Below, one piece after another: positions 3 to 47,245 of a stretch of DNA of 64,000 nucleotides. Position 1 is the first letter of the stretch. Every line of letters begins with the position of its first letter. Origin of the DNA: Streptomyces sp. PCS3-D2 (lineage in GTDB: Bacteria > Actinomycetota > Actinomycetes > Streptomycetales > Streptomycetaceae); contig NZ_CP097800.1 in assembly GCF_000612545.2 (NCBI RefSeq), positions 186,001 through 250,000 on the forward strand, read 5' to 3'. Made by a program: the position numbers and the translations under genes. A model generated the notes under the pieces. The model ran no database searches and was not told the origin of the DNA. It saw only the letters and a list, made by a program, of their open reading frames with translations.

Positions 3-347
3 TCTCTCGGATACTCCGACGTGGTCGACCCGTTGGCACCGGCCGACGGTCTGCCGCTGCTCGCGGACGCCGAGTCGCACCGTGCGACGGAGTGGGAGGC
101 CGTCCTCCTCGTGGGTGACGCGGCGACGGTTGCGGCGGCACGGCGCTGGCACGAGACGATCTGGACCATACAGCTGCTGATCCGGGAGGACTCGGTCGAC
201 GGCGAGATGTGGACCAGGGCGCACCGGATGGCGAGCGCGGCGCGTGACGCCTTCTACGAGAGTGCGCGGCGCGACCTCGGCATCGAAGGCGCTCCCCCGC
301 CGCCGGGACAGTGGCCCCGCGAGTGGCGGGCCGAGCTGTCCGGCTGA
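3..347 (+). CDS. Conserved hypothetical protein, C-terminal fragment
   Basis: The reading frame is already open at the left edge of the window, so this is the 3' part of a longer gene; a GTG at 21 is in frame but has no ribosome binding site I can see. The visible 115 or so residues are mostly helical and charged, with a run around AARRWHETIWTIQLLIRED followed by a C-terminal RDAFYESARRDLGIEG segment. I recall similar tails in uncharacterised Streptomyces proteins but cannot name a domain or function. No transmembrane segment is visible. It ends about 400 bases before the NLR-type operon and is probably unrelated to it. Confidence 0.7.
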   Translation, partial: SLGYSDVVDPLAPADGLPLLADAESHRATEWEAVLLVGDAATVAAARRWHETIWTIQLLIREDSVDGEMWTRAHRMASAARDAFYESARRDLGIEGAPPPPGQWPREWRAELSG

Positions 348-744
348 ACGGGTCCCGGCCCGTGCCCTGGCGGACCGCTGCCCGGTAGCGGCCACACCGT
401 GGGAGCGACAGGCGCGTGGCCCGTAGAGGGCGGCCCATGGGCCGCACTCGGCGGACGTCTCGCGCCACTGGGCACTGGACCGGAACCTACGCGTCACGAC
501 CATCCTCCACCGGGGTTCCACCCCACGAAGAGGGCAGAACCCAGCACCTGCTCACGACATCACGCAGGCCCCCACCCTTCGGCCTCCAGGCAGGCCCGAA
601 GCTCCTGGCGGCCGGATCGGACATCGTTCCCGCCGGATTCCGGCGTTCTACCCCAGAAGATCCATGGGATCTCTAGGGTGGTTCCGCTGTCTTTTCGCGC
701 GGTCGGCCCCCCGGGGGCCGGCCCGTCACACAAGGGGGAGAACA
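348..744. other. Intergenic region before the NLR-type operon
   Basis: About 400 bases with no gene I can support: open frames here have poor codon bias. It must hold the promoter of the downstream two-gene unit. A GC-rich perfect hairpin (704-720, arms of 8) lies just upstream of the ribosome binding site GGGGGAG at 733-739. I see no convincing -35/-10 pair. Confidence 0.5.
704..720. repeat. Short perfect inverted repeat in the leader of the effector-like gene
   Basis: CGGCCCCC-C-GGGGGCCG, eight-base arms around one base, 25 bases ahead of the GTG start at 745. It could be a leader hairpin near the ribosome binding site or an operator, or simply a chance GC-rich palindrome. Confidence 0.4.
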
Positions 745-1275
745 GTGCTGGTCGAGACGTTGACAGCGTTGGCCGCCGCGGGTGGCGGCGCGGTCGTACA
801 GGCCGCCGGGACGGACGCCTGGCACGGAGTACGGCGCCGGGTGGCGGAGCTCTTCGGGCGCGGCGACGAGCAGCGGGAGCGGGCCGAGCTGGAACGGCTG
901 GACCGGACCTCCCGGGCGCTGGAACCCGGCGCGTCCGCGGACCCGGAGCGGGAGCGTGACCGGCAGAGCGGCATGTGGCAGGGGCGCTTTGAGTCCCTGC
1001 TGGAGAACGCGGACCCGCAGGATCAGCAGCGCGTGGCCGACGAGCTGCGGGCGCTGCTTCGCTGTGGCACCCTCCTCGAGGGCGACCTGGCCGTGTCCAC
1101 CGGAAAGGCCACGGCCACGGACGGGGGCCACGCCGTGACCGGTGTCGAGCGCACCGGCGGAGTGGACGGGCGGCCGGCGCGCGCGGTGAACACCGGGGAC
1201 GCGCAGGCCACCGGCCCGGGCTCCCGCGCCGTCAGCGGCATCACTGATTCCCGCCGTGACCCACGAGGCGCCTAG
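745..1275 (+). CDS. Small helical protein with duplicated C-terminal amyloid-like motif, candidate effector of the adjacent NLR
   Basis: A 176-residue protein from GTG 745, chosen because GGGGGAG lies 5 bases upstream; longer in-frame starts have no such site. Residues 2-22 form a hydrophobic, small-residue-rich stretch (LTALAAAGGGAVVQAAG), followed by a charged helical region to about 110. Residues 117-134 (VSTGKATATDGGHAVTGV) and 148-166 (VNTGDAQATGPGSRAVSGI) are two copies of one Gly/Ala/Val motif. A third copy is in the N-terminus of the next protein, 56 bases downstream in the same direction. In bacterial NLR systems, effectors with a C-terminal amyloid motif pair with NLRs bearing the matching N-terminal motif. 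The N-terminal part resembles membrane-targeting Bell/HeLo-type domains only in general character. Function is inferred. Confidence 0.75.
   Translation: MLVETLTALAAAGGGAVVQAAGTDAWHGVRRRVAELFGRGDEQRERAELERLDRTSRALEPGASADPERERDRQSGMWQGRFESLLENADPQDQQRVADELRALLRCGTLLEGDLAVSTGKATATDGGHAVTGVERTGGVDGRPARAVNTGDAQATGPGSRAVSGITDSRRDPRGA
1093..1242 (+). repeat. Tandem copies of an amyloid-like signalling motif within the effector-like gene
   Basis: Codons 117-166 of the small protein contain two diverged copies of a motif close to V-[ST]-T-G-x-A-x-A-x-[DG]-G-x-x-AV-[ST]-G-[IV]. The codons differ, so this is conservation of protein sequence rather than a recent DNA duplication. Confidence 0.65.
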
Positions 1276-1331
1276 GCACCGGACACCGTCCGAAGGCCGG
1301 AGAGCGACGAGGCGAGGGATCGGGAGCGGCC

Positions 1332-4300
1332 ATGGCGAAATGGCACTGGGGCAGGCGACGTGACGGGGGCGGGCGCAGCCTGGCCCGGGGCACCGCCGTC
1401 GAAGGGGTGCGCGTGACGGGGGACATCCCCTCGTCGCCCCCCGCCCAACAGGTGACAGGGTCCGGGAACGCTGTCGCCGACAACGGCGGCATCGCGGTCT
1501 CGGGTATCTACAACGACCATTCCAGCGTGCTGCTGCCTCCCGAGGTGTTGCGGGCGGCGGCCAAGGTGAAGGCCCCGCGGGGCATGGACGATCTGCCCTA
1601 CCTGCCCGGTCACTTCGTGGGCAGGGAATCCGAACTGCAGGCCCTGGACGCGGCGTTGAAAGGGTCAGGACAGGTGCGCCTGCAGGCGGTGCACGGACTC
1701 GGCGGAGTCGGAAAGAGCGCCCTGGCCGCCCACTGGGTGGCCACACGGGCCCACTCCCACAAGCTGAGGCCGGTCCGGTGGATCACCGCCGACAGTCCCG
1801 CCGGCGTCGAGCAGGGGCTCGCCGCCCTGGCCGTAGCACTGCAGCCGGCCCTGGCCAAGGTGCTCACCACGGCAGCCCTGGCCGAGTACGCCCTCCAATG
1901 GCTTGCGGGACACACTGGCTGGCTGCTGGTCCTGGACAACGTCACCGACCCGGCTGACATCGCCGCACTGCTCGCGCGCGCCCCCGGCGGCCGCTTCCTG
2001 ATCACCAGCCGGCTCGCCACGGTGTGGACCACCGCCACCACCGTCATCCGACTCGACGTCCTGGACCCGGCCGAGTCCCTGACCCTGCTCACTCGCGCCA
2101 CCACCGCAGCCGGGCCCCGGGACCTGGACGGCGCCGCCGAGCTGTGCGCCGAACTCGGCCATCTGCCCCTCGCGGTGGTCCAGGCGGCCGCTTACCTGGC
2201 GCAGAACCCACTCCTCACCCCAAGCAACTACGTCGGCCTCCTGCGCGAGGACCCGGCCGGGACCTATCAACAGGGAGGCGAGGGCCGCACCTCCGCCGAG
2301 CGCACCGTCGCCCGCGTCTGGCGCGTGACGCTGGACCGGATCAGCGAACTCCAGCCGTACGCGGCCCGCGTCCTGCGCGCCCTGGCCTGGTACGGCCCCG
2401 ATCGCATCCCCGTCGGCCTCCTCGACCGCATTCCCGACCATCCCTTCGAGTCGATGCCCACGCCTCGCCAGGTCGCCGACGCCGTCGGCCTCCTGAACGC
2501 GTACAGCATGATCGATGTCGCCCCGGCCACCCGCACCCTCGGCATGCACCGTCTCGTGCAGGGGCTGACCCGCACACCCGATCCCGCCGACCCCCACCGC
2601 GACCCGGTGCTCATCGAGATGGCCCGCATCCACGCGACCCTCGCCCTGCACGAGGACGTCATCCCCCTGTCCTGGCGGGACCCGGCCTTGTGGCCACAGT
2701 GGCGCAGCCTGATCCCGCACATCGATGCCCTGGCGAGCAACACGCCGACCGCCGATGACTCACCGCAGATGGCGGCACTGCTCAACCAGGCGGGGGGCTA
2801 CCTCCACGGCCAGGGGCTGGCGGGCCGGGCGGTCCCGCACCTCGAACGAGCCCTCGCGTACCGGGAGCGCAGCCAGGGCCGGGACCATCCGGACACCTCC
2901 GACATCGTCAACAACCTCGCCGCCACCCGGCTCGCGATCGGTGACCTGGCCGGGGCCGTCGCCCTGTCCGAGCGGGCCGTCGCGGCGACCGTGCGGCACA
3001 GGGGCAGGGATCATCCGCTCAGCATCGGAGCCCAGGTCAATCTCGCGGTGGTCCGCCTGGAGGCCGGGGAGGTGGACCGGGCGACGGCCATGATCGAGCA
3101 GGCCCTCGCCGACAGTCTCCGCCTGGGAGGTGAAGCGCACTACGCCACCATCATGGTCCGTTCCCATCTGGCAACCGCCTACCTGGCGGCCGGGCACTTC
3201 GACCGGGCGCTGGAACTACAGACGCGGAACGCCGCCATCAGCGCCCGGGTGCTCGGGGAGGACCACCCCGACACCCAGGCCGCCCGCATCATCCTCACCC
3301 AGGCCGCCCAGGCGGCGGGAGACCCGGCCAGAGCCGTCCCGTTGTACGAACGGCTCCGCCGACGCCAGGAGCGGGCCCTGGGCGAGGACCATCCGCACAC
3401 CCTCGCCACCCGTTCCAACCTCGCCTCCGCCCACCTGGCGTCCGGAAACCCAGGCCGGGCGATCGAGGAGAACGAGCAGGTGGTCGAAGACCGGATGCGC
3501 GTCCTCGGCGAGGACGATCCGCACACGCTTGCCGCCCAGGGCCTCCTCGCCGACGCCTACACCGAGGCCGGGGACACCGAGCGGTCGATCCCGCTCAGCG
3601 CGCGCGTCCTGGAGGACCGGCTGAGGGTCCTGGGAGAGGACCACCCCGACACCTTCACCGCCCGCGAGAGTCTGGCCGGGGCACACCGGGCGGCGGGAGA
3701 CCTCGACCGGGCGATCCTGCTCTGCACCCAGGTCCTCGACGACAGGCTGCGTGTACTCGGCCCGAACCACCCCGACACCCTCAACGCCCGGAACAACCTC
3801 GCTCTCCTCCAAGGGGGGCAAGGGGCAGAAGACAAGGCGATCGCCCTGCTCGAACACACCCTCGCCGAGAGCGTGCGCGCGCTGGGCGAGGACCACCCGC
3901 ACCTTGCCGCCACCCGCCACAACCTGGCGGCCGCGCACCTGGAGGCGGGAAATCCCGGCCGGGCGATACCCCTCCTGGAGCAGGCCGTCGCCACGAACAT
4001 CCGCACGCTGGGCCAGGACCATCCCCGCACGGTCGACTCCCTCCACGGACTGGCATCGGCCCACCGGGAGGCGGGGAACGCGGCCCAGGTCGCCCTGCTG
4101 TGCGAACGGATCCATGCCTCCCACAGCCGCACGCTCGGCGAGCACGACGCCCAGACCCTCACGTCCGCTTCCCACCTCGCGCTCGCCCGCCTGGAGGCGG
4201 GAGACCCCGAGCGCGCCCTCCCCCTGCTGAAAGCCGCCTTCCGCGCGCAGAAACGTCTCCTCGGCCCCGGGCACATCGACTTCCTCACGACCGCCCACAA

Positions 4301-4499
4301 CCTGGCCCTCGCCCACCACGCGCTGGGACACCTGGGCAAGGCCCTCCGGCTCTACCGGAAGGTCCTCATCCTCAGCACCTCTGTCCTGGGCGAGGACGAT
4401 CCCCTGACGCAGTCCGCCGCCGCGCACCACGCCGCCGCCTCCGCTGCGCGGGGCGCCCCTGAAGACCCCCACATCGATCACGCCCCCAAGAGAAGCTGA
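1332..4499 (+). CDS. NB-ARC/TPR STAND (NLR-like) ATPase with N-terminal amyloid-like motif
   Basis: A 1055-residue signal-transduction ATPase of the STAND class. Residues 41-59 (VTGSGNAVADNGGIAVSGI) match the duplicated motif of the preceding protein. An NB-ARC ATPase follows: P-loop GLGGVGKS at 122-129, Walker B LLVLD at 198-202, and a GLPLA-like HLPLAVVQ further on. From about 479 to 1040 there are roughly 13 kinesin-light-chain-type TPR units of about 42 residues, each with a LGxDHPxT-like turn. In such proteins TPRs act as the ligand sensor, NB-ARC oligomerises, and the N-terminus passes the signal to an effector. It probably forms an operon with the upstream gene. ATG 1332 follows GGGATCGGGAG, a weak ribosome binding site. 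The activating ligand is unknown. Confidence 0.9.
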   Translation: MAKWHWGRRRDGGGRSLARGTAVEGVRVTGDIPSSPPAQQVTGSGNAVADNGGIAVSGIYNDHSSVLLPPEVLRAAAKVKAPRGMDDLPYLPGHFVGRESELQALDAALKGSGQVRLQAVHGLGGVGKSALAAHWVATRAHSHKLRPVRWITADSPAGVEQGLAALAVALQPALAKVLTTAALAEYALQWLAGHTGWLLVLDNVTDPADIAALLARAPGGRFLITSRLATVWTTATTVIRLDVLDPAESLTLLTRATTAAGPRDLDGAAELCAELGHLPLAVVQAAAYLAQNPLLTPSNYVGLLREDPAGTYQQGGEGRTSAERTVARVWRVTLDRISELQPYAARVLRALAWYGPDRIPVGLLDRIPDHPFESMPTPRQVADAVGLLNAYSMIDVAPATRTLGMHRLVQGLTRTPDPADPHRDPVLIEMARIHATLALHEDVIPLSWRDPALWPQWRSLIPHIDALASNTPTADDSPQMAALLNQAGGYLHGQGLAGRAVPHLERALAYRERSQGRDHPDTSDIVNNLAATRLAIGDLAGAVALSERAVAATVRHRGRDHPLSIGAQVNLAVVRLEAGEVDRATAMIEQALADSLRLGGEAHYATIMVRSHLATAYLAAGHFDRALELQTRNAAISARVLGEDHPDTQAARIILTQAAQAAGDPARAVPLYERLRRRQERALGEDHPHTLATRSNLASAHLASGNPGRAIEENEQVVEDRMRVLGEDDPHTLAAQGLLADAYTEAGDTERSIPLSARVLEDRLRVLGEDHPDTFTARESLAGAHRAAGDLDRAILLCTQVLDDRLRVLGPNHPDTLNARNNLALLQGGQGAEDKAIALLEHTLAESVRALGEDHPHLAATRHNLAAAHLEAGNPGRAIPLLEQAVATNIRTLGQDHPRTVDSLHGLASAHREAGNAAQVALLCERIHASHSRTLGEHDAQTLTSASHLALARLEAGDPERALPLLKAAFRAQKRLLGPGHIDFLTTAHNLALAHHALGHLGKALRLYRKVLILSTSVLGEDDPLTQSAAAHHAAASAARGAPEDPHIDHAPKRS
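1452..1508 (+). other. N-terminal amyloid-like motif of the NLR (matches the upstream protein)
   Basis: Codons 41-59 encode VTGSGNAVADNGGIAVSGI, which aligns over its whole length with the two C-terminal copies in the upstream small protein (shared TG, small residues, GG and AV[ST]G[IV]). It lies in an otherwise disordered N-terminus ahead of the P-loop. Confidence 0.65.
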
Positions 4500-4533
4500 G
4501 GATCGGATCGGTCCGACGGCCGCTGCCGAGGTG

Positions 4534-5049
4534 TCAGGCAGCGGTGGAGCGGGCCTCCAGCTGTGACTTCAGGTTGCGCAGGGTCGTCCGGATGTTCTTC
4601 CGCTGGAACTCGGCGAAGGTGTGTCCCCTCGTCGCGATCCGGTCGAACGTGTGGGCCACCGCATCGGGCCAGCTCCGGCGGTCGTCGGTCCACGTCTCGG
4701 TCACCTCGGTGCCCCCGGGCACGGCGGCGAAGCGGTACTCCCAGGTGGCGATCGGGCCGGGCAGCCACGGGCGGCGGAAGCCTATGGCGTGGACCCTGAA
4801 CCGGAACAGCCGGTCCGGGTCGGCGGCCGTCACCGTGCAGCGGGTCGTCCAGCGCAGCGGGCCGCGTTTGTTGCGGCCGTCGAAGGCCATGCCGACCCGG
4901 GTCCGGGTGCCCGGCCCGTCGACCGGGGTCCCGCCGAGGTTCTCCGGGCTCCAACGCCCCATCAGGGCGGGGTCGGCGACGTGCTGGTAGACCGTCGACG
5001 GGTCGGCCGCGACGAAGACGGTGTCGTGGACGCTGAACGTACGGGGCAT
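4534..5049 (-). CDS. SRPBCC superfamily protein (polyketide cyclase/dehydrase-like)
   Basis: A 171-residue START/Bet v1-like protein beginning MPRTFSVHDTVFVAADPSTV, with the usual [VA]xAxPxxVWxxVADPxxMGRWSPE opening of this family, alternating strands and a long C-terminal helix. The ATG at 5049 is chosen over a GTG seven codons upstream because GGAGGG lies 5 bases before it. Members bind small hydrophobic ligands or act as cyclases; the substrate cannot be read from sequence. Its 3' end converges with the NLR gene (34 bases apart). It is the last gene of a minus-strand group with the ClC and reductase-like genes, 85 bases after the ClC stop. Confidence 0.85.
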   Translation of the reverse strand: MPRTFSVHDTVFVAADPSTVYQHVADPALMGRWSPENLGGTPVDGPGTRTRVGMAFDGRNKRGPLRWTTRCTVTAADPDRLFRFRVHAIGFRRPWLPGPIATWEYRFAAVPGGTEVTETWTDDRRSWPDAVAHTFDRIATRGHTFAEFQRKNIRTTLRNLKSQLEARSTAA

Positions 5050-5134
5050 GTGGCTCCCTCCTCGGAGCACGACGGTAGCGGCCGCCTCGCGGCACGGGTC
5101 CGGCGGGCCCCTCTCCAGCCGGCCCCCGCACCCG

Positions 5135-6418
5135 TCAGGCCCGTTCCAGCATGCGGCGGCGAAGAGTGTCGTAGAGGGGTGCGCTCCCCAGCCGGTCCGC
5201 CGTCACCGCCGCGGCGAAGCAGGCCGTCAGCAGCGGCAGCAGGAGCGCGCCGGTGCCGGTCATCTCCGTCACCAGGGCGACGCCGGTGAGCGGTGCCCGC
5301 ACCACGGCGGTGAAGACGGCGGCCATCCCCACGGCCGCGAACGCGGCGGGACCCGCCGTGCCGACCGGCAGCAGGGGGAAGGCGGCCGCGTGGGTGAGCG
5401 TCCCCCACAGGGCTCCCAGGGCCAGCAGTGGTGCGAACAGCCCGCCGGGAGTCGCGGCAGCGTAGCTGAGCGGGCCGGCCACGAAGCGCACGACGAGGCA
5501 GACCACCAGCGCCGCGCCGGTCAGGCTCCCGCCCGCCAGCAGGCGCTCGCTCAGCTGGTCGCCGCCGCCCGTGAGGAGCGGGTCGAAGGCCATCAGGGCG
5601 CCGACCAGGGCCCCGATCACGGCGGCCCGGACCACGAGGGGCACCTGGGTGAGGCGGTCGCACACCTCCAGAGTCCCCACGACCAGGGCGCTGTACCCGG
5701 CGCCCAGTGCCCCGGCCGTCACCCCACACAGGAGGAAGACCGGGAGCATCCACAGCGGCGGGGCGGGAACGGCCGGCATGGGAAGGACCAGCCCGTCGCC
5801 CACGATCAGCTGGGAGACGGACACCGCGGTGACGGTGCCGACGATCGTCAGCAGCACCAGGCGGGGCCGCACCGTGCCGGTCACCTCTTCGCAGACGAAC
5901 AGCAGCCCGCCCAGCGGGGCGGTGAAGGCCACCGCAAGACCGGCCCCGCCCAGCGCGGTGTGGAGCATGCGGGCGTCGCCGGCGTCCAGCCGGCCGCGGC
6001 GGCCCGCCACGGCTCCGATGGCGGCACCCATGTGGACGATCGGTCCCTCCCGGCCCAGGACCAGGCCCGAGCCGATCCCGACGACTCCGCCCGCGAACTT
6101 CGCGGGTAGCAGCCGGGCCGGGTGGCCCTGGGACTCCCCCCGCCACACGGCCTCCACGTGCTGGATGCCGCTGCCCGCGGCGTGCGGTACCCGCAGGGCG
6201 ATCGCACAGGCCGCCGCCGCGCCCGCCGCGGTGAGGGCGACGGGGATCAACCGGCCGGCCCCGCCCAGTGCGGCGGCCTCCTCCACGACCGAGGTGCGCA
6301 GCAGGTCGGCGTGTTCCAGGCACCACCGGAACGCGCCGCCGACCAGCCCGACCAGACCCCCCGCCAGCGCCGCCACCAGGAAGGCGCGGCCGTCTCCCCA
6401 CCTCCGCCCGGATGCCAT
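5135..6418 (-). CDS. ClC-family chloride/proton exchanger
   Basis: A 427-residue polytopic membrane protein with the ClC signature loops: GSGIQ at 82-86, GREGP at 122-126 and GGLFAP at 325-330. It has the gating glutamate (E124) and a second glutamate in LLFVCEEVT (E178) that aligns with the proton glutamate of the E. coli exchanger. The C-terminal APLYDTL tyrosine is also kept. These residues favour an H+/Cl- antiporter over a passive channel. No cytoplasmic CBS domains are present. It starts 3 bases after the stop of the reductase-like gene on the same strand, so the two are likely translationally coupled. Confidence 0.92.
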   Translation of the reverse strand: MASGRRWGDGRAFLVAALAGGLVGLVGGAFRWCLEHADLLRTSVVEEAAALGGAGRLIPVALTAAGAAAACAIALRVPHAAGSGIQHVEAVWRGESQGHPARLLPAKFAGGVVGIGSGLVLGREGPIVHMGAAIGAVAGRRGRLDAGDARMLHTALGGAGLAVAFTAPLGGLLFVCEEVTGTVRPRLVLLTIVGTVTAVSVSQLIVGDGLVLPMPAVPAPPLWMLPVFLLCGVTAGALGAGYSALVVGTLEVCDRLTQVPLVVRAAVIGALVGALMAFDPLLTGGGDQLSERLLAGGSLTGAALVVCLVVRFVAGPLSYAAATPGGLFAPLLALGALWGTLTHAAAFPLLPVGTAGPAAFAAVGMAAVFTAVVRAPLTGVALVTEMTGTGALLLPLLTACFAAAVTADRLGSAPLYDTLRRRMLERA

Positions 6419-6421
6419 GGC

Positions 6422-7036
6422 TCAGTGCTGGGGCAGGTGGGTCTTGGCGTCCTCGTACGTCGCCCCGCCGGGTGCGGGGGCCACGGCGTAGAAGAGGTTC
6501 AGCACACCGGTGCGGAAGGTCTCGGCGGACACCAGCTCCAGCGGCACCGCTGTGGGCTCCCGGTCGAACAGGCGCATGCCGCCGCGCACGGCGATCGGGT
6601 GCAGCAGGAGGTTCAGTTCGTCCAACAGCCCGGCGGCGATCAGCTGGCGCACGACGGAGACCGAGCCGCTGATCCATACCGGCGTGTCCGCCCCCGGCTG
6701 CTCCTTCAGGGCGGCGACGGCGGGGGCGAGGGCGCCGCCGAGCTGTTCGCAGTTGCGCCAGGTGAAGTCGAGCCGGCTGTTCGACACCACGATCTTGCGC
6801 GCGTCACCCAGCACCTTGGCGAACGGCGCGTCCCCCCCGCCCTCCGCCTCCCGCTGCGGCCAGGCGCCCGCGAAGCTGTCGTACGTCCTGCGCCCGAGCA
6901 GCAGGGTGTCGGCCCGGCCCAGGGTGGCATCCACGGCGGCGCCCATCTCGTCGTTGAAGTAGGGGAAGTGCCAGCGGTCGGGCGCCTCGACGACACCGTC
7001 GAGCGAAATGAACAACTGCGCCTTGATCTTCCTCAT
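6422..7036 (-). CDS. Dihydrofolate reductase family (RibD C-terminal domain) protein
   Basis: A 204-residue stand-alone RibD-C/DHFR-fold protein starting MRKIKAQLFISLDGVVEAP, followed by LLLGRRTYDSFAGAWP, KIVVSNSRLDFTWRN, ISGSVSVVRQLIAAGLLDEL and LLLHPIAVRGGMRLF, which are the usual NADPH-fold landmarks. Most members of this small family in actinobacteria have no assigned substrate; they are neither true DHFR nor complete RibD. It is the first gene of a minus-strand group with the ClC exchanger (3-base gap) and is divergent from the MMPL transporter. The 269-base divergent region shows no operator I can name. Confidence 0.88.
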   Translation of the reverse strand: MRKIKAQLFISLDGVVEAPDRWHFPYFNDEMGAAVDATLGRADTLLLGRRTYDSFAGAWPQREAEGGGDAPFAKVLGDARKIVVSNSRLDFTWRNCEQLGGALAPAVAALKEQPGADTPVWISGSVSVVRQLIAAGLLDELNLLLHPIAVRGGMRLFDREPTAVPLELVSAETFRTGVLNLFYAVAPAPGGATYEDAKTHLPQH

Positions 7037-7305
7037 GCCGGTCTCCGGGAGCTGGTGGTCGGTCCGTCCGCGTACGGGCCCATCCAAGGGCACGCGGGGG
7101 TCTGTACCCGGTGCATTCACCCGCACGGCGGCTGCGTCGACCGCTTGCGGACCCCGCCGACGGCGTGCGACTGCGGATCGGCGGCCGGGAACTGCAACCC
7201 GATCGGCCCCTCGGCCGGAAGTGGGGATGAGGGGCCGCCGCCGCGGACCCCCCGGGCACGGACGCTGTTCGCCCGACCTCCACCCATCACGGCCAAGGAC
7301 TCTCG

Positions 7306-9444
7306 TTGAGAAAGACACCGCGCGCAAAGGCATCGCGCCGGGCCCGCTGGATCGTTCCGCTCGCCCTGCTGGTCGTATGGCTCGGCATCGGTGGAACGCT
7401 GGGACCGTACGCGGGCAAGCTCCGCGAGGTCGCCACGAACGACCAGGCGGCGTTCCTGCCGCGCAGCGCCGAGTCGACGCGGGTCCTCGAAGCCCGCGGG
7501 GCCTTCGAGGAAGCGCAGTCCGTACCCGCCGTCGTGGTGTGGACGGCGAACGGGCCCCGGGTGACCGTCGGGCAGCAGGAGGCGGCCGCTCGGGCGGTCG
7601 GGGACCTCGTGGGACGGCCCGGGATCGCCACCACGCCCTCACCGCCCGTCGTCTCCGCCGACGGGCGGGCCCTGCAGGCCGTCGTACCGCTCGCGCCCGA
7701 CCTCGGCGAGGAGCTCCCGGCGGTCCTGGACGAGGTGCGGCAGGCGGCGCAGCGGGTGCCGGGCACCTCGGTCGGGATCGCCGGTCCGGCGGCCACCCAG
7801 GCGGACCTGTCCGAGGCGTTCGCGGGGATCGACGGGCTGCTGTTGGGAGTGGCCCTGGGAGCGGTCCTGCTGATCCTGCTGCTGGTCTACCGCAGTGTGC
7901 TGCTGCCCCTGGTGATCATCATCAGCGCGGTGTTCGCGCTGGGCCTGGCCTGCGCGGTGGTCTACGCGCTGGCGGCCCGGGGCGCCGTCCGCGTGGACGG
8001 CCAGGTGCAGGGAATCCTGTCGATCCTCGTGATCGGCGCCTCGACCGACTACGCCCTGCTGGTCGCCGCGCGCTTCCGGGAGGAGCTCGCCGTACGCGGC
8101 GACCGGGCGCACGCCGCGGCGGCAGCCGTGCGCCGGTCGGCCGGAGCGGTCACCGCCAGTGCGGCGACCGTGGCCCTGGGACTGCTGGCCCTGCTGGCGA
8201 GCGACCTGACGAACAACCGGGCACTCGGGCCCGTCGGCGCCATCGGGATCGTCTGCGCGGTGCTGAGCTCGCTGACCTTCCTGCCGGCCGTCCTGGTCCT
8301 GCTGGGCCGCACCGCGTACTGGCCGGCCATGCCCGGCCCGGCCGATGCCTCGGCCGAGGGGCACCGCGTGTGGCGCCGGATCGCCGCCCTGATCGACCGC
8401 TCTCCCCGCCGCGTGTGGGTCTCCACCTCCGTCCTGCTGGTGGTGCTGGCCGGCTTCTCCCCCGCGCTGTCCGCCAAGGGCGTGCCACTGGACGAGATCT
8501 TCGTGAACGACGCGCCCTCGGTGGGCGCCCAGCAGACGCTGGCCCGGCACTTCCCCGGCGGCTCGGGCAATCCCGCCGTCGTCATCGTGAACGCCGACCG
8601 GGCCGCCGAGGTACGGGTGGCCGCCGAAGGCACCGACGGGGTCGCCTCGGTCGCACCCTTCACCGCGGGTGGCGGCAGGCCGGGCCCGGGGGCTCCGCTC
8701 GTCGTGGACGGCCGCGTCCGTCTGGATGCCACGCTGGACGCGGCGACCGACAGCGACGCCGCCAAGAGGACGGTCCAGCGGCTGCGGGAGCGCGTGCACG
8801 CGGTGCCGGAGGCCGACGCGCTCGTCGGGGGCTACACCGCCCAGCAGTTCGACACCCAGCAGACCTCGGCCCGTGACCGCGCCGTCATCGTCCCGGTCGT
8901 CCTCGGCATCATCCTGCTCATCCTCGTCGCGCTCCTGCGCTCCGTGCTCGTGCCCGTCCTGCTGGTGGCGACGGTCGCACTGAACTTCCTCGCCACCCTG
9001 GGGGTGTCCGCGCTCGTCTTCGGACACCTGCTGGGCTTCAGCGGCACGGACGCCTCCGTACCGCTGTACGGATTCGTGTTCCTGGTCGCCCTCGGCGTCG
9101 ACTACAACATCTTCCTGATGTCCCGCGTACGCGAGGAGAGCCTCGCGCTGGGGACCCGTGCGGGCGTGCTGCGGGGGCTCGTCACCACGGGCGGGGTCAT
9201 CACCTCCGCCGGGGTGGTCCTCGCCGCGACCTTCGCCGCGCTGATGGTGATTCCGCTGGCCTTCCTCGTCCAGATCGCCTTCATCGTCGCCTTCGGCGTC
9301 CTGCTGGACACCCTCGTCGTGCGGTCTCTGCTGGTACCGGCCCTCATCATCGACATCGGCCCGCGCGTCTGGTGGCCCGGTGCGCTGGCCCGCCCGGGCA
9401 CGCGGGTCGGCCCGCGGACCGCACCGGCGGCGCGGACCGGGTGA
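7306..9444 (+). CDS. MMPL/RND family transporter
   Basis: A 712-residue membrane protein with two similar halves, each with a first transmembrane segment, a large extracellular loop and a cluster of five or six segments. The opening is RRARWIVPLALLVVWLGIGG, then GPYAGKLREVATNDQAAFLP. Paired SSD-like cores are at about 175-345 (SILVIGASTDYALLVAARFREEL) and 525-700 (LVALGVDYNIFLMSRVREES). The Asp-Tyr pairs are the proton-relay residues of the family. It likely exports a lipid or hydrophobic metabolite. The start is a TTG at 7306 preceded by AAGGA; no better start exists in frame. It converges with the hydrolase gene with no spacing between stops. Confidence 0.93.
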   Translation: MRKTPRAKASRRARWIVPLALLVVWLGIGGTLGPYAGKLREVATNDQAAFLPRSAESTRVLEARGAFEEAQSVPAVVVWTANGPRVTVGQQEAAARAVGDLVGRPGIATTPSPPVVSADGRALQAVVPLAPDLGEELPAVLDEVRQAAQRVPGTSVGIAGPAATQADLSEAFAGIDGLLLGVALGAVLLILLLVYRSVLLPLVIIISAVFALGLACAVVYALAARGAVRVDGQVQGILSILVIGASTDYALLVAARFREELAVRGDRAHAAAAAVRRSAGAVTASAATVALGLLALLASDLTNNRALGPVGAIGIVCAVLSSLTFLPAVLVLLGRTAYWPAMPGPADASAEGHRVWRRIAALIDRSPRRVWVSTSVLLVVLAGFSPALSAKGVPLDEIFVNDAPSVGAQQTLARHFPGGSGNPAVVIVNADRAAEVRVAAEGTDGVASVAPFTAGGGRPGPGAPLVVDGRVRLDATLDAATDSDAAKRTVQRLRERVHAVPEADALVGGYTAQQFDTQQTSARDRAVIVPVVLGIILLILVALLRSVLVPVLLVATVALNFLATLGVSALVFGHLLGFSGTDASVPLYGFVFLVALGVDYNIFLMSRVREESLALGTRAGVLRGLVTTGGVITSAGVVLAATFAALMVIPLAFLVQIAFIVAFGVLLDTLVVRSLLVPALIIDIGPRVWWPGALARPGTRVGPRTAPAARTG

Positions 9445-10224
9445 TCACCACTGCGGCCCCGGCGCGCCGGTCGCGTTCCCGTCGGCTCGCACCGGACCGA
9501 ACGGACCGTCGCCCCCGGGGAGGCCGCCGGGGAACGGGGCGATACCGAGGAGCGCCGCGGTGGCTTCGGCCGTGATCCGGTGCCACAGGCCGGCGTTGCC
9601 GATCATGGCGTGGCCGCCGCGGGGCATCCTGATGCCGCGGACCCGGGCTTCGGCCTTCCGGGCGCGTTCGAGGTAGGCCCAGGTGTCCGCCGCCCGGGTG
9701 ACACGGTCGTGTTCGTCATGGAGGGCGACAACCGTGCGAGCGCGCAGATGGGCGGCCGGTTCGGCCGGCGGGCACCACGGAGCGAGCGCCACGACCCCCT
9801 CGACCTGGGGATCGTCTGCGGCACGCAAGGCCGCACGCCCGCCCATGGAGTGCCCCACGAGGACGACGGGAACCGGTCCGGCGACGGCACGGAGCTCCTC
9901 CAGGGCGCGTCGGACGTCGGCGACCGGATGCGCGTGGTGGCCGTTCCAGCCCCGGTGCCGGTAGCGGACGTGTGCGACGAACACGCCGGCGTGGGCGGTG
10001 GCGCGCGTGACGGCCGTCGCAAAGGGTCGCATGCGCAGGGCCGGCAGGTTCAGCAGGGGCGGCGGCCGCAGGGCGTCCGCCCGACCGCCGTGCAGCAGCA
10101 GGACGGCCGCGGGCACCCCTTGGGACAGCCGGTGGGCGGGGGCGGGGATCAGGGCGGCCGGTACGGGCCGATCCCGGTGGGCGCCCCCTCCGGGGTGGTC
10201 GGCGGCCTCGGGCGAAGGGTCCAC
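9445..10224 (-). CDS. Alpha/beta hydrolase
   Basis: A 259-residue alpha/beta hydrolase with the nucleophile elbow GHSMGG, an early LLLHGG oxyanion loop, an acid-bearing loop near VVALHDEHDRVT and a late histidine in PRGGHAMIG. No signal peptide. The GTG at 10224 is supported by AGGAGG 6 bases upstream and begins 3 bases after the DUF1295 stop, so it is probably the last gene of the SigK-linked operon and may act on a lipid. The substrate is unknown. Confidence 0.85.
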   Translation of the reverse strand: MDPSPEAADHPGGGAHRDRPVPAALIPAPAHRLSQGVPAAVLLLHGGRADALRPPPLLNLPALRMRPFATAVTRATAHAGVFVAHVRYRHRGWNGHHAHPVADVRRALEELRAVAGPVPVVLVGHSMGGRAALRAADDPQVEGVVALAPWCPPAEPAAHLRARTVVALHDEHDRVTRAADTWAYLERARKAEARVRGIRMPRGGHAMIGNAGLWHRITAEATAALLGIAPFPGGLPGGDGPFGPVRADGNATGAPGPQW

Positions 10225-10227
10225 ACG

Positions 10228-11049
10228 TCACCTCCTGGGCTTCGAGGGGTGGTGGCGGGGCGGGAGCGGAAGGAATCCGCTGGTGCGGGCGGCGTACTCA
10301 GCGTAACCGGGGCGGTCGGCCATGTGTCTCTCCAGCAGTCGCTTGCCGCTGCCGACCGTCAGCAGGGCCGTCATGAGGACCGGGGAAACCAGGCTCAGCA
10401 GCGCCGAGGACACGCTGGTGCAGGCGAACAGGTACAGGCCCCACCAGACGAGGCTGTCGCCGAAGTAGTTGGGATGGCGGGTCCAGCCCCACAGTCCCCG
10501 GTCCATGATGCGGCCCCGGTTGGCCGGGTCCTCCTTGAACCGGGCCAGCTGGTGGTCGCCCACGGCCTCGAAGCACAGTCCTGCGGCCCACAGGGCCAGT
10601 CCGAGTGCGCCGAGCACGCCCACCGGGGCCGCCGCGTACGAGGCGGCCTGGACGGGCAGGGAGACGAGCCAGACCAGCGCGGCCTGGAGGAGGTACACGG
10701 TGCGCAGGGCGTACCAGGTCCGGTTTCCGGGTGCCTTGTCCAGGAGCGCGGTGTAGCGCGGGTCCTCCCCGTGGCCGCGGGCGCGCCGTGCGATGTGCGC
10801 CGACAGCCGCAGCCCCCACAGGATGGTTGCCGCGGCGACGAGCAGCCGTCTGACGGGGTCTCCCTGCCCGGCGGAGAGGACGTAGGTCGCGACGGCGACG
10901 GCGCTGAAGGCGACACCCCAGGCGACGTCGACGACGCGGTGCAGGCGCAGGCGTGTTCCGACGGCGAACGCGACGAGCAGTACGGCCGCCGAGACGGCTG
11001 CCGCGACCGCCAGGTTGGTGCCGAACGGGCCCCAGGCGGTGCCGTTCAC
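10228..11049 (-). CDS. DUF1295 membrane protein (steroid 5-alpha-reductase-like fold)
   Basis: A 273-residue polytopic protein of the DUF1295 family, with the C-terminal signature GLWGWTRHPNYFGDSLVWWG followed by GKRLLERHMADRPGYAEYAARTSGFLP. This family shares the fold of lipid reductases and methyltransferases such as steroid 5-alpha reductase and ICMT, and is usually found next to cyclopropane-synthase-like and DUF1365 genes, as here. The GTG at 11049 follows GGGGAGGGG. It lies 43 bases after the methyltransferase stop. A role in reducing or modifying the methylated acyl chain is likely but inferred. In M. tuberculosis the homologue (Rv0446c) is also next to sigK. Confidence 0.88.
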   Translation of the reverse strand: MNGTAWGPFGTNLAVAAAVSAAVLLVAFAVGTRLRLHRVVDVAWGVAFSAVAVATYVLSAGQGDPVRRLLVAAATILWGLRLSAHIARRARGHGEDPRYTALLDKAPGNRTWYALRTVYLLQAALVWLVSLPVQAASYAAAPVGVLGALGLALWAAGLCFEAVGDHQLARFKEDPANRGRIMDRGLWGWTRHPNYFGDSLVWWGLYLFACTSVSSALLSLVSPVLMTALLTVGSGKRLLERHMADRPGYAEYAARTSGFLPLPPRHHPSKPRR

Positions 11050-11092
11050 GGCCCCTCCCCGGCGGCGGACGCCCCGGCGGGCCCGACGGCCC

Positions 11093-12424
11093 TCACCGGA
11101 AGGTCCCGTCGGTCAGGACGATCTGGCGGACGTCCAGGTAGCGGGAGCGGAAGCCGGCTTCCGAGTAGGCCAGGTAGAAGTCCCACAGCCGCTGGAAGAC
11201 GGTGTCGAAGCCGAGTTCGGCGACGGTCGCCTGGTTCGCAGTGAACCGTTCCCGCCACAGCCGCAGGGTCTGCGCGTAGTGCTCGGCGAAGCCCATATCG
11301 GACTCGGTGCGCAGGCCTGCCGCCGCCGCGTGCTCGGTGATGGCGCGGCGGGAGGGGATCAGGCCGCCGGGGAAGACGTACTTGCTGATCCAGGTGTGGG
11401 TGGCCGCGGTGTTCAGCATCTGCCGGTGGCCCATGGTGATGGCCTGGAGGGCGACGCGGCCGCCGGGATGGAGCGCGGCCCGCAGGGCGGCGAAGTAGGA
11501 GGGCCAGTACTCGGCGCCGACCGCTTCGATCATCTCGACGCTGACCACGGCGTCGTAGCGGCCCTCCACGTCACGGTAGTCGCACAGCCGGACCTCGACG
11601 CGGTCGCCGAGCCCGGCGGCGTCGATCCGGGCGCGGGCGAGGGCGGCCTGTTCGGCGGACAGGGTGAGGGTGGTGACGCGGGCACCGCGGGCCGCCGCGC
11701 GCAGCGCGAGCTCTCCCCAGCCGGTGCCGATCTCCAGCAGCTCGGTACCGTCCGTGACGTGGGCGAGGTCCAGGAGTCGGTCGATCTTGCGGTGCTGGGC
11801 GGCAGGGAGGTCCTCGTAGCGCGCGGGGAAAGCGGTGAACACGGCGGAGGAGTAGGTGAGGGTCGGATCGAGGAAGGCGGCGAAGAGGTCGTTGGACAGG
11901 TCGTAGTGGCGGTGGATGTTCTCGCGTGCGCCGCGCCGGGTGTTGCGGTCGCGGCCTGGGCGGTGGGACACCCACAGCGGGCGGAGGCCGCGCAGCGGGG
12001 CCGGGACCAATTCGTCGACGTGGGTGGCGAGGACGGTCAGCAGGCCGGGCAGGTCGTCGCTGTCCCATTCGCCGGCCATGTACGACTCCCCGAAGCCGAT
12101 CAGGCCGGCGTGCCCGATGCGCTGGAAGAAGGCGTCCGGGTCGTGGAGGGTGATGTCCGGCCGGGGGCCGGTAGCGGCGTCGGTTCCGGTGCCGTCGCGT
12201 ACCTCCAGGGGGAGCCGCTTGAGAGCCCGGCCGACCAGGTGTGCGGCGACGGCGGTCCGGGCCGGACCGGCGGCCGGCAGCCGTGCCACGTCCGGCCAGC
12301 GTGCGGGGTCCGCGCCCCGGCCGGCAGCGGGGGTGCGGCCGGGCATACGCCGCTGCTCCGGCATCAGCGGCGGACGGCCGGACGGTGGTGCCTGGTGGTC
12401 GGGCGTGATGGCCGGGCGGGTCAC
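11093..12424 (-). CDS. Cyclopropane-fatty-acyl-phospholipid synthase-like methyltransferase
   Basis: A 443-residue SAM-dependent methyltransferase of the CFA synthase family. After a disordered Pro-rich start comes FGESYMAGEWDSDDL, then HYDLSNDLFAAFLDPTLTYSS, the SAM-binding motif LLEIGTGWGELALRAA, SVEMIEAVG and HTWISKYVFPGGLIPS, all diagnostic of the family. Enzymes of this type methylate the double bond of phospholipid-bound unsaturated acyl chains, giving cyclopropane or methyl-branched products. Its GTG start overlaps the DUF1365 stop (GTGA, 12421-12424), so translation is coupled. It corresponds to ufaA1 (Rv0447c) in the M. tuberculosis sigK locus. Confidence 0.93.
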   Translation of the reverse strand: MTRPAITPDHQAPPSGRPPLMPEQRRMPGRTPAAGRGADPARWPDVARLPAAGPARTAVAAHLVGRALKRLPLEVRDGTGTDAATGPRPDITLHDPDAFFQRIGHAGLIGFGESYMAGEWDSDDLPGLLTVLATHVDELVPAPLRGLRPLWVSHRPGRDRNTRRGARENIHRHYDLSNDLFAAFLDPTLTYSSAVFTAFPARYEDLPAAQHRKIDRLLDLAHVTDGTELLEIGTGWGELALRAAARGARVTTLTLSAEQAALARARIDAAGLGDRVEVRLCDYRDVEGRYDAVVSVEMIEAVGAEYWPSYFAALRAALHPGGRVALQAITMGHRQMLNTAATHTWISKYVFPGGLIPSRRAITEHAAAAGLRTESDMGFAEHYAQTLRLWRERFTANQATVAELGFDTVFQRLWDFYLAYSEAGFRSRYLDVRQIVLTDGTFR

Positions 12425-45868: not shown

Positions 45869-46552
45869 CTAGTGGGGGCGCGGCCGGGGGGCGGGGCAGG
45901 CCTGCCAGGCGAGGTGGTAGAGCGTGCTCACGCTGGCGTCGGTGGAGTCCATCGTCATGAAGCTGGTGACGGCCTGCGGGTTGGACGTCCCCGCGTTCAC
46001 CCGCAGTTCTGTGTTGATGTTGAAATTGCGTTTCTCGCCGCACGGCGCCCAGACGAGATCCGCGTACTCCGTCCTGTCGGTCGCCTGCCAGTTGTCATTG
46101 AGCGGACCGTTGAACGTATGGGTGCGCTGGGTGGTCGTCGGCATTCCCTGGAAGTAGTAGTTCGCCTTCTCCTGGCCCCATGCGCCGGGTTGGAGGAATG
46201 CGAATCCGCGGTAGTCCGCCTGGACAATGGCATAGGTGAATCCCGAAGGAACGTGCACCCGAAGATTGAGCTGGCAGTTCTTCCGGAATCCGGTCGGCGG
46301 TGCTCCCGGCCCCACTTCCGCGAGGTAGTCACTGTAGGTCACGGTGAAGGCCGTGTTGTCGGGTGCGACGGCCACTTCTGCGGTGCCCTCCCGACAGCCT
46401 GAGCCGTTCACCGTGGCGAGTTCGATCACGATCTTGTCGGGCGGTGCGGTGATCTGCGGTGTGGGGCCGGCGGCTCCGGCCGGGGTTGCGGTGACCACCA
46501 GGGCAGCGGCCGCGGCGCCCGTGAACAGAGCGCGGGGCAAGGAATGGGACAT
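45869..46552 (-). CDS. Secreted DUF4360 family protein (copy 1)
   Basis: A 227-residue secreted protein: signal peptide LPRALFTGAAAAALVVTATP, then the DUF4360 landmarks VNGSGCREGTAEVAVAPDNT, FTVTYSDYLAEVGPG, KNCQLNLRVHVPSGFTYAIV, DYRGFAFLQPG and WAPCGEKRNFNINTELRV. Four conserved cysteines probably form two disulphides. ATG 46552 follows AGGAG. It lies 48 bases after a close paralogue, so the pair came from a tandem duplication. DUF4360 proteins are widespread secreted proteins of fungi and actinobacteria without a proven function. Confidence 0.9.
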   Translation of the reverse strand: MSHSLPRALFTGAAAAALVVTATPAGAAGPTPQITAPPDKIVIELATVNGSGCREGTAEVAVAPDNTAFTVTYSDYLAEVGPGAPPTGFRKNCQLNLRVHVPSGFTYAIVQADYRGFAFLQPGAWGQEKANYYFQGMPTTTQRTHTFNGPLNDNWQATDRTEYADLVWAPCGEKRNFNINTELRVNAGTSNPQAVTSFMTMDSTDASVSTLYHLAWQACPAPRPRPH

Positions 46553-46600: not shown

Positions 46601-47245
46601 TCAGACCGCGGGACACTCCTTCCACGCGAAGTGGTAGACCGTGCTGACGCTGCCGTCCGTGGAGTCCATGCTCATGAAGCTCAGGGCCTGTGGGCTCGAC
46701 GTTCCGGCGTACACCCGCAGTTCGCTGTTGACGTTGAGGTTGCGCTCCTCGCCGCACGGCGCCCAGACCAGGTCGGCGTACTCGGTCTGGTCGCTCGCCT
46801 GCCAGTTGTCGGAGTAGGGGCCGTTGAACTGGTGCGTCCTGCGGGTGGTCTGGGCCATGCCCTGGAAGTAGTAGTTGGCGCGCTCCTGACCAAAGGCCCC
46901 GCGCTGGAGGTGGGCGTAGCCGCGGTAGTCCGCCCGGGCGATGGCGTACGTGAAGCCCTGCGGCACGTGGATCTGCAGGGCCAGCTGGCAGTTCTTGCGG
47001 AATTCGGTCCCGCCCGAGCCGGCTCCGGTCTGGGCGAGATAGTCGCTGTAGGTGACCGTGAACGAGGTGTTGTCGGAGGCAGCGGCGACACTCGCCGTCC
47101 CCTGGGGACATCCCGAACCGTTCACGCCGACGACGTCGACGGTGATTCTCCCGGGCGGGTACGTGGCGTTGTGGGCTTGTGCCGGCATCGCCAGGGAAGA
47201 CAGCGCCACCACCGCCGCGCCGACTGTGAGCCTGCGGAGCAACAT
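46601..47245 (-). CDS. Secreted DUF4360 family protein (copy 2)
   Basis: Roughly 214 residues, clearly homologous to the following gene product over its full length: VNGSGCPQGTASVAAASDNT, TVTYSDYLAQTGAGSGG, KNCQLALQIHVPQGFTYAIA, YRGYAHLQRGAFGQERANYY and ending VYHFAWKECP. A signal peptide (LTVGAAVVALSSLAMPAQAH) precedes. I place the start at ATG 47245 because GGAG lies 9 bases before it; an ATG five codons upstream (47260) is possible but has no such site. It is the first gene of the tandem pair. Confidence 0.88.
   Translation of the reverse strand: MLLRRLTVGAAVVALSSLAMPAQAHNATYPPGRITVDVVGVNGSGCPQGTASVAAASDNTSFTVTYSDYLAQTGAGSGGTEFRKNCQLALQIHVPQGFTYAIARADYRGYAHLQRGAFGQERANYYFQGMAQTTRRTHQFNGPYSDNWQASDQTEYADLVWAPCGEERNLNVNSELRVYAGTSSPQALSFMSMDSTDGSVSTVYHFAWKECPAV

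Follow-up and report, generated by a model that had tools for sequence, protein, structure and literature searches.

A small effector gene and an adjoining NLR gene in Streptomyces sp. PCS3-D2 share a repeated motif, consistent with a Bell/BASS-type signalling pair

Two adjoining genes lie at the start of a 64-kb window of the genome of Streptomyces sp. PCS3-D2 (7.6 Mb in 3 contigs; the window is the whole 64,000-nucleotide stretch analysed, positions 186,001 to 250,000 of contig NZ_CP097800.1). One encodes a small putative effector and the other a nucleotide-binding oligomerisation domain-like receptor (NLR). The effector ends in two copies of a sequence motif, here called motif A, and the NLR begins with a third. 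Across genomes, proteins with the effector's N-terminal domain carry different C-terminal motifs, and wherever motifs were detected in both partners the two had switched family together. These observations, along with a predicted helical N-terminal domain and two predicted beta-arch-like elements in the effector, have led us to propose that the pair is a two-gene NLR signalosome in which the receptor would template the effector through stacked shared motifs and the effector would then disrupt a membrane, a reading to which we assign a probability of about 0.72. The features on which the argument draws are the following.

734..740, + strand: ribosome-binding-type sequence GGGGGAG ahead of the effector start, from the sequence
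745..1275, + strand: effector gene, 176 aa, GTG start; gene limits confirmed, protein relatives in 205 of 393 genomes of the genus
745..1059, + strand: effector N-terminal domain, residues 1-105, Bell-like, five helices predicted by AlphaFold2; block conserved among relatives
1099..1146, + strand: motif copy 1, effector residues 119-134, TGKATATDGGHAVTGV; 39.7 bits, predicted strands 122-125 and 129-132
1192..1242, + strand: motif copy 2, effector residues 150-166, TGDAQATGPGSRAVSGI; 42.2 bits, predicted strands 153-156 and 161-164
1332..4499, + strand: NLR gene (motif, NB-ARC, tetratricopeptide repeats), 1055 aa, ATG start; open reading frame and domain matches
1461..1508, + strand: NLR-side motif copy, residues 44-59, SGNAVADNGGIAVSGI; scored 30.8 bits by a profile free of NLR copies
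1626..2204, + strand: NB-ARC ATPase domain, NLR residues 99-291; PF00931, 33.2 bits against a cut-off of 23.5
2748..4373, + strand: tetratricopeptide repeats (TPR), presumed sensor half of the NLR; TPR_10 249 bits, TPR_12 235 bits

The gene pair and its shared motif

The effector gene is separated by 56 bp from the downstream NLR gene on the same strand, and a purine-rich ribosome-binding-type sequence precedes both starts. The motif common to the two products reads (T/S)GxAxAxx(x)G(G/S)xAV(T/S)G(I/V), the effector-side near-invariant positions being T, G, x, A, x, A, x, G, G, S/G, x, A, x, T/S, G and I/V, and the two effector copies start 31 residues apart. A first-pass annotation, made from the letters of the window, had proposed an NLR-effector pair sharing a motif at the effector C-terminus and the NLR N-terminus and had placed the segments at effector residues 117-134 and 148-166 and NLR residues 41-59. 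The placement was correct, these segments holding the 16-17 residue cores listed above, and the sharing was confirmed by a two-block profile built from 59 first and 59 second copies of 63 distinct effectors, the window effector included and no NLR copy. When all six frames of the window were scanned in open reading frames of at least 30 codons, the three copies stood far above the background, the next best score being 10.9 bits.

By direct comparison within the window the match is moderate: the effector tail and the NLR N-terminus align with a Smith-Waterman score of 56, equalled by 11 of 5000 shuffles (21 of 5000 for copy 1 alone and 407 of 5000 for copy 2 alone). The two effector copies resemble one another more closely, with 1 of 5000 shuffles as good. 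Small residues alternate with variable ones to either side of a glycine turn, as would be expected of a beta-arch, and each effector copy was predicted by AlphaFold2 to form one strand-turn-strand (122-125/129-132 and 153-156/161-164). The motif-A profile found no match among PDB sequences.

Motif A across genomes

The motif-pair profile was present in 58 of the 393 genomes of the genus and in 4 of 396 genomes sampled phylum-wide, namely the source genome, another of the genus, a member of another family (G589), in which motif A also sits on a divergent receptor, and one weak match. Fetched regions held the motif pair in 68 effector-type frames, 63 of them distinct. For 53 of these 63 effectors, motif A occurs again in a forward frame no more than 1000 bases downstream, as against none of 119 control windows (0/59 at 1.6-2.6 kb upstream and 0/60 at 3-4 kb downstream). 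Counting was based on frames because the gene finder missed partners, for example at locus L099; the count based on gene calls is 41 of 63. In three further arrangements (L046, L101 and L167) a motif-A effector lies beside a motif-A NLR in a different orientation, and at L144 a motif-A NLR is convergent to a motif-A effector. A plasmid pair that lay outside the profile training (L266, Streptomyces sp. HUAS 14-6) again carries the motif twice in the effector and once in the receptor. The annotated start of this plasmid NLR excludes an in-frame motif (L266, 5001-5226); scans of annotated proteins would miss such receptors.

Doubling of the motif in the effector, which had been singled out as unusual, turned out to be the usual state of the family. 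Two copies are present in all 14 Bell-type motif-A effectors found through the N-domain alone, and in 53 of 53 paired motif-A effectors, although the latter were found with a two-copy profile. Receptors carry one copy in 12 of 12 partners of Bell-type effectors, and one (26) or two (15) in partners of other types.

Three motif-A pairs coexist in the source genome (the window, L099 and L100), and of its sixteen further NB-ARC places, the eight that were read (in L153-L158) showed no motif-A copy in the NB-ARC protein. Among these places, short secreted-looking peptides are encoded divergently from regulators that by eye resemble AfsR/SARP-type NB-ARC proteins (L153, 1601-1792; L155, 4179-4385; L156, 1489-1653), and a 63-aa peptide with repeated DNHASG adjoins an NB-ARC gene (L154, 986-1177).

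Co-switching of motif families

The window effector's N-domain was found on 112 distinct tails, which were sorted into 15 of family A, 28 of B, 5 of C, 62 of D and 2 others. Profiles trained on effector copies were used to look for partners in one kilobase downstream, with thresholds of 12 bits for A and an expectation value E<1e-3 for B, C and D. A matching motif was found for 12/15 A, 22/28 B, 5/5 C and 1/62 D tails; at all 40 of the 112 loci with a downstream motif it was of the matching family, with no off-diagonal case, and stretches 3-4 kb downstream held any motif in 0/106. The covariation of the motif pair, for which the first-pass annotation had suggested a test, thus holds wherever both members were detected. 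One label among the A tails, that of L182, is wrong, the tail being of family D; it was kept in the count of 15 and in the Fisher test of the 63-effector set. Of the 14 true A tails, 12 have motif A downstream, L046 has a convergent motif-A NLR and L159 has none.

The same coupling appeared when family labels were set aside. Alignment of each tail with its own downstream N-terminus gave a mean score of 46.2 versus 32.7 for permuted partners (reached in 0 of 20000 permutations), while the second gene downstream gave 23.6 versus 23.4, that is, nothing. This set comprised 65 non-redundant loci out of 142 records, 27 having been removed as redundant and 50 dropped for a long or short tail, lack of a neighbour, opposite strand, distance or a short neighbour.

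Tails of family B follow a RHIM-like pattern, GNTFxGPTAxQxGxxNxQ, and 25 of the 28 have two Q residues seven positions apart. At four loci (L047, L048, L049 and L052) a Bell-like domain and RHIM-like motif are followed by a conserved C-terminal extension, and no NLR was called adjacent. At L068, from 5976, a single 951-aa frame joins a Bell-like domain to motif D and to additional sequence, and may represent the two-gene system fused into one protein.

Several executioners and exchanged receptor motifs

BLASTP linkage of the N-domains of the 63 motif-A effectors yielded a membrane-type group of 43, to which L099 belongs, a Bell-like group of 15 that includes the window effector, three soluble-looking proteins (L129, L135 and L136) and two singletons (L137 and L143). 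Judged by these linkages, motif A is attached to no fewer than three groups of N-domains that BLASTP does not connect. A separate type was considered for L130, L132 and L145 and ruled out, because the linkage places their N-domains in the membrane group. Effectors of that group begin with hydrophobic segments by eye, with a hydropathy of 2.2 in L099, the one computed. Two loci, L046 (1151-6908) and L101 (4199-10391), have an NLR accompanied by two effectors, one of membrane type lying upstream and one of Bell type that is convergent to the NLR, the Bell-type gene of L101 being interrupted; at L167 (5398-8520) a membrane-type effector diverges from a Bell-type effector and its NLR.

The receptors ranking next in similarity to the motif-A set (L246-L257) carry a different motif, motif E (RSxAIGGDNxGxLSTGD), which is also present in the upstream gene in 12 of 12 cases, twice in 10; in L248 and L254, the two that were read, the upstream product is a different membrane-type protein. 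NB-ARC identity to the window NLR (P0002) is 60-67% for motif-E receptors and 59-65% for motif-A receptors. In an NB-ARC tree of 31 rows the distribution of A and E needs 4 changes, 2 of them forced by well-supported branches; in a rapidly built tree of 71 Bell domains, based on few columns, the 9 with motif A group as a single clade. From these two trees we infer that, among receptor bodies, an exchange of motif has been accompanied by an exchange of effector. The relatives were sampled as 20 loci from the 22 ranking after eight strong matches, with a search profile built from paired NLRs, and motif E was scored without control windows. Within this sample motif E occurs in both NLR and upstream gene at 13 loci (L246-L257 and L263); five (L258, L260, L261, L264 and L265) have an E-like NLR N-terminus and no upstream motif E by pattern search, at L259 the effector looks E-like, though only by eye, and L262 has no motif. 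The NLRs of L260, L264 and L265 lie near recR (by eye), with no adjacent effector found; possibly they are orphan receptors acting in trans, or their motif has decayed.

A wider proposal, which we put forward tentatively and at somewhat less than even odds, is that motif A may serve as an exchangeable adaptor, joined to several executioner domains and to differing NLR bodies, some NLRs having two executioners. Specificity would then lie with the motif family and not with the pair, and therefore the window, L099 and L100 pairs could cross-talk, forming in one genome a cell-death network of several sensors and executioners.

The material is of use beyond this locus: it offers a clear, doubly repeated motif family, three coexisting pairs in one Streptomyces-type genome and receptors of similar body between which motifs have been exchanged in nature. 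Together these make two questions testable, namely amyloid templating in bacterial NLR signalling and the separation of coexisting amyloid pathways, and a similar NLR body carrying either motif A or motif E is a ready-made natural experiment.

The effector domain, the receptor and a proposed mechanism

The AlphaFold2 model of the effector, made from 54 sequences (mean predicted local distance difference test, pLDDT, 75.2), has helices at 2-21, 23-38, 42-58, 67-88 and 91-112, with block pLDDT at 92-97 over residues 31-100 and at 54-60 over the first 20 residues. No Pfam family matched the N-domain above cut-off and no Bell profile was among the Pfam matches; DUF6611 was weakly matched by 11 of 18 N-domain relatives (best E 0.0014). 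For the whole effector, Pfam, NCBIfam and PADLOC gave nothing stronger than E 0.03, the best PADLOC model being LeoA at that value, and the NLR matched no PADLOC model. At least 80 effector relatives were listed, the named records being mostly Streptomyces with some other actinobacteria, and among the relatives in genomes of the genus many match the N-domain only. In the NLR the P-loop begins at residue 122, and the TPR half gave 16 matches to solved sequences at E<=1e-10, TPR proteins by name and mostly kinesin light chains.

In the mechanism that we propose, the TPR/NB-ARC receptor would be closed at rest and the small effector soluble or loosely membrane-associated. A trigger, plausibly a phage, would be sensed by the TPR half and cause the NB-ARC domain to oligomerise, gathering several N-terminal motifs. 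These would stack as beta-arches and template both C-terminal motifs of the effector into the same cross-beta stack, and the resulting clustering would allow the helical N-domain to attack and disrupt the membrane, so that the cell is killed or arrested. Amyloid templating is here, by analogy, the best reading of how the shared motifs might act.

A number of observations weigh against this proposal. Confidence of the AlphaFold2 model is low across the effector motif region (pLDDT of 53-72 in blocks), and disorder is predicted for the NLR N-terminus (pLDDT about 25-45, in a poor model from 9 sequences). The effector N-terminus had been described as helical and hydrophobic at its start; helices are indeed predicted, but the first is only borderline hydrophobic (hydropathy 1.45). 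Fold searches with the effector model returned nothing significant, and HeLo/MLKL was not recovered, which shows little. Motif A is rich in Ala, Gly and Thr and lacks the N/Q ladder of RHIM-type motifs. Partners of tail family D went mostly undetected (1/62 at E<1e-3, 9/62 at E<0.1); only a degenerate partner copy is seen at L109 and L120 (by eye), L112 (8.7 bits) and L141 (10.1 bits), and no motif-A partner was found at L130 or at L159, a 6 kb contig on which a resolvase-like gene comes next by eye. Within family A, motif identity is 0.559 for true partners and 0.554 for non-partners over 53 pairs, and partner-specific tuning inside the family was ruled out on this ground.

Two alternatives keep some weight, each of them unlikely in our judgement. 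The first accepts the motif-linked pair and gives it another output, signalling or developmental control in place of membrane-attacking cell death. In its favour, the effector is a candidate toxin by inference, its N-domain lacks a significant solved-fold match, and hydropathy is negative across most of that domain beyond the first helix; however, the hydrophobic starts of the membrane-type group, the largest with this motif, suggest the membrane as a common target. The second, of much the same low standing, holds that the motif is a homotypic docking peptide of non-amyloid kind, working through paired beta-arches or a shared surface, that would recruit the effector stoichiometrically and without fibre growth. 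Every covariation result given above suits any homotypic contact, and motif A is Gly/Ala/Thr-rich and not N/Q-rich; against this, the sibling family B, borne by the same N-domain, is RHIM-like and has the Q spacing of a BASS3 motif of S. atratus whose foci are reported to be abolished by proline changes (PMC9815663).

Very little room is left for the view that the NLR belongs to an FxSxx-COOH peptide system with the small gene an incidental neighbour. The NLR does match NCBIfam NF040586 (FxsT) with 509 bits at a cut-off of 300, but the eight proteins scanned around the pair (window 21-12346) are ordinary or unnamed with no FxSxx-system partner named among them, and the small gene co-switches its motif with the NLR. 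That the motifs are plain low-complexity Gly/Ala linkers, alike through high-GC codon bias and without covariation, finds some footing in the merely moderate raw similarity and the high GC content, but is scarcely credible when T, G, A, A, G, A, G and I/V recur almost without change at set positions, and was rejected because of the control-window counts and the co-switching results. Elsewhere in the window, two adjoining DUF4360 genes lie on the - strand at 45869-46552 and 46601-47245.

Comparison with known systems

With the FxSxx-COOH system the pair has in common an FxsT-like TPR protein, the NLR being recognised as such by NF040586. Avs and bNACHT are bacterial antiphage systems of the STAND/NLR kind built on a STAND ATPase receptor with repeats, and the present NLR is of the same build; unlike them, the effector here is a separate small protein joined to its receptor by a motif, and the best PADLOC match has E 0.03. 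A search of literature listings for an antiphage function of such pairs found nothing direct.

The fungal HET-s system offers a closer parallel in arrangement: the effector is described as carrying copies r1 and r2 and the neighbouring Podospora NLR one copy, r0 (PMC8086366). Two effector copies and one NLR copy are likewise found here, but no sequence kinship was seen, the motif-A profile having no PDB match and the HeLo fold not being recovered. For BASS3, the literature describes a RHIM-like motif with foci and fibril evidence (PMC7889193, PMC9815663, PMC7885112), and a GFP fusion of the S. atratus motif, with Q113 and Q120, makes the foci referred to above (PMC9815663). The Q spacing of family B equals that of Q113/Q120, and the N-domain of the window effector is therefore tied indirectly to Bell proteins. 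Set beside the RHIM, PP and BASS3 motifs, tail family B on this N-domain is RHIM-like, whereas motif A has no Q-x-G core and is based on Gly, Ala and Thr.

The primary paper on the BASS1-10 Bell/BASS-NLR signalosomes is that of Dyrka et al. (2020, J Mol Biol). Ten BASS motif families on Bell-NLR gene pairs, mainly from actinobacteria and cyanobacteria, are described in the literature (PMC7889193, PMC8086366, PMC12261475, PMC9815663, PMC7885112). Motif A is shared by at least three N-domain groups. That it corresponds to BASS4 is a guess, made only because BASS4 is described as often repeated on the Bell side, like HET-s (PMC8086366). As described, the signalosomes combine a small helical N-terminal domain and C-terminal motif with an adjoining NLR bearing that motif at its N-terminus, in multicellular actinobacteria, as is the case here. 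The locus has an NLR of NTPase and repeats, an adjacent effector ending in the motif, an N-terminal motif on the NLR and co-switching of the two, and the effector's N-domain is also found with a BASS3-like tail. Assignment of the gene pair to the known Bell/BASS-NLR kind is thus well supported.

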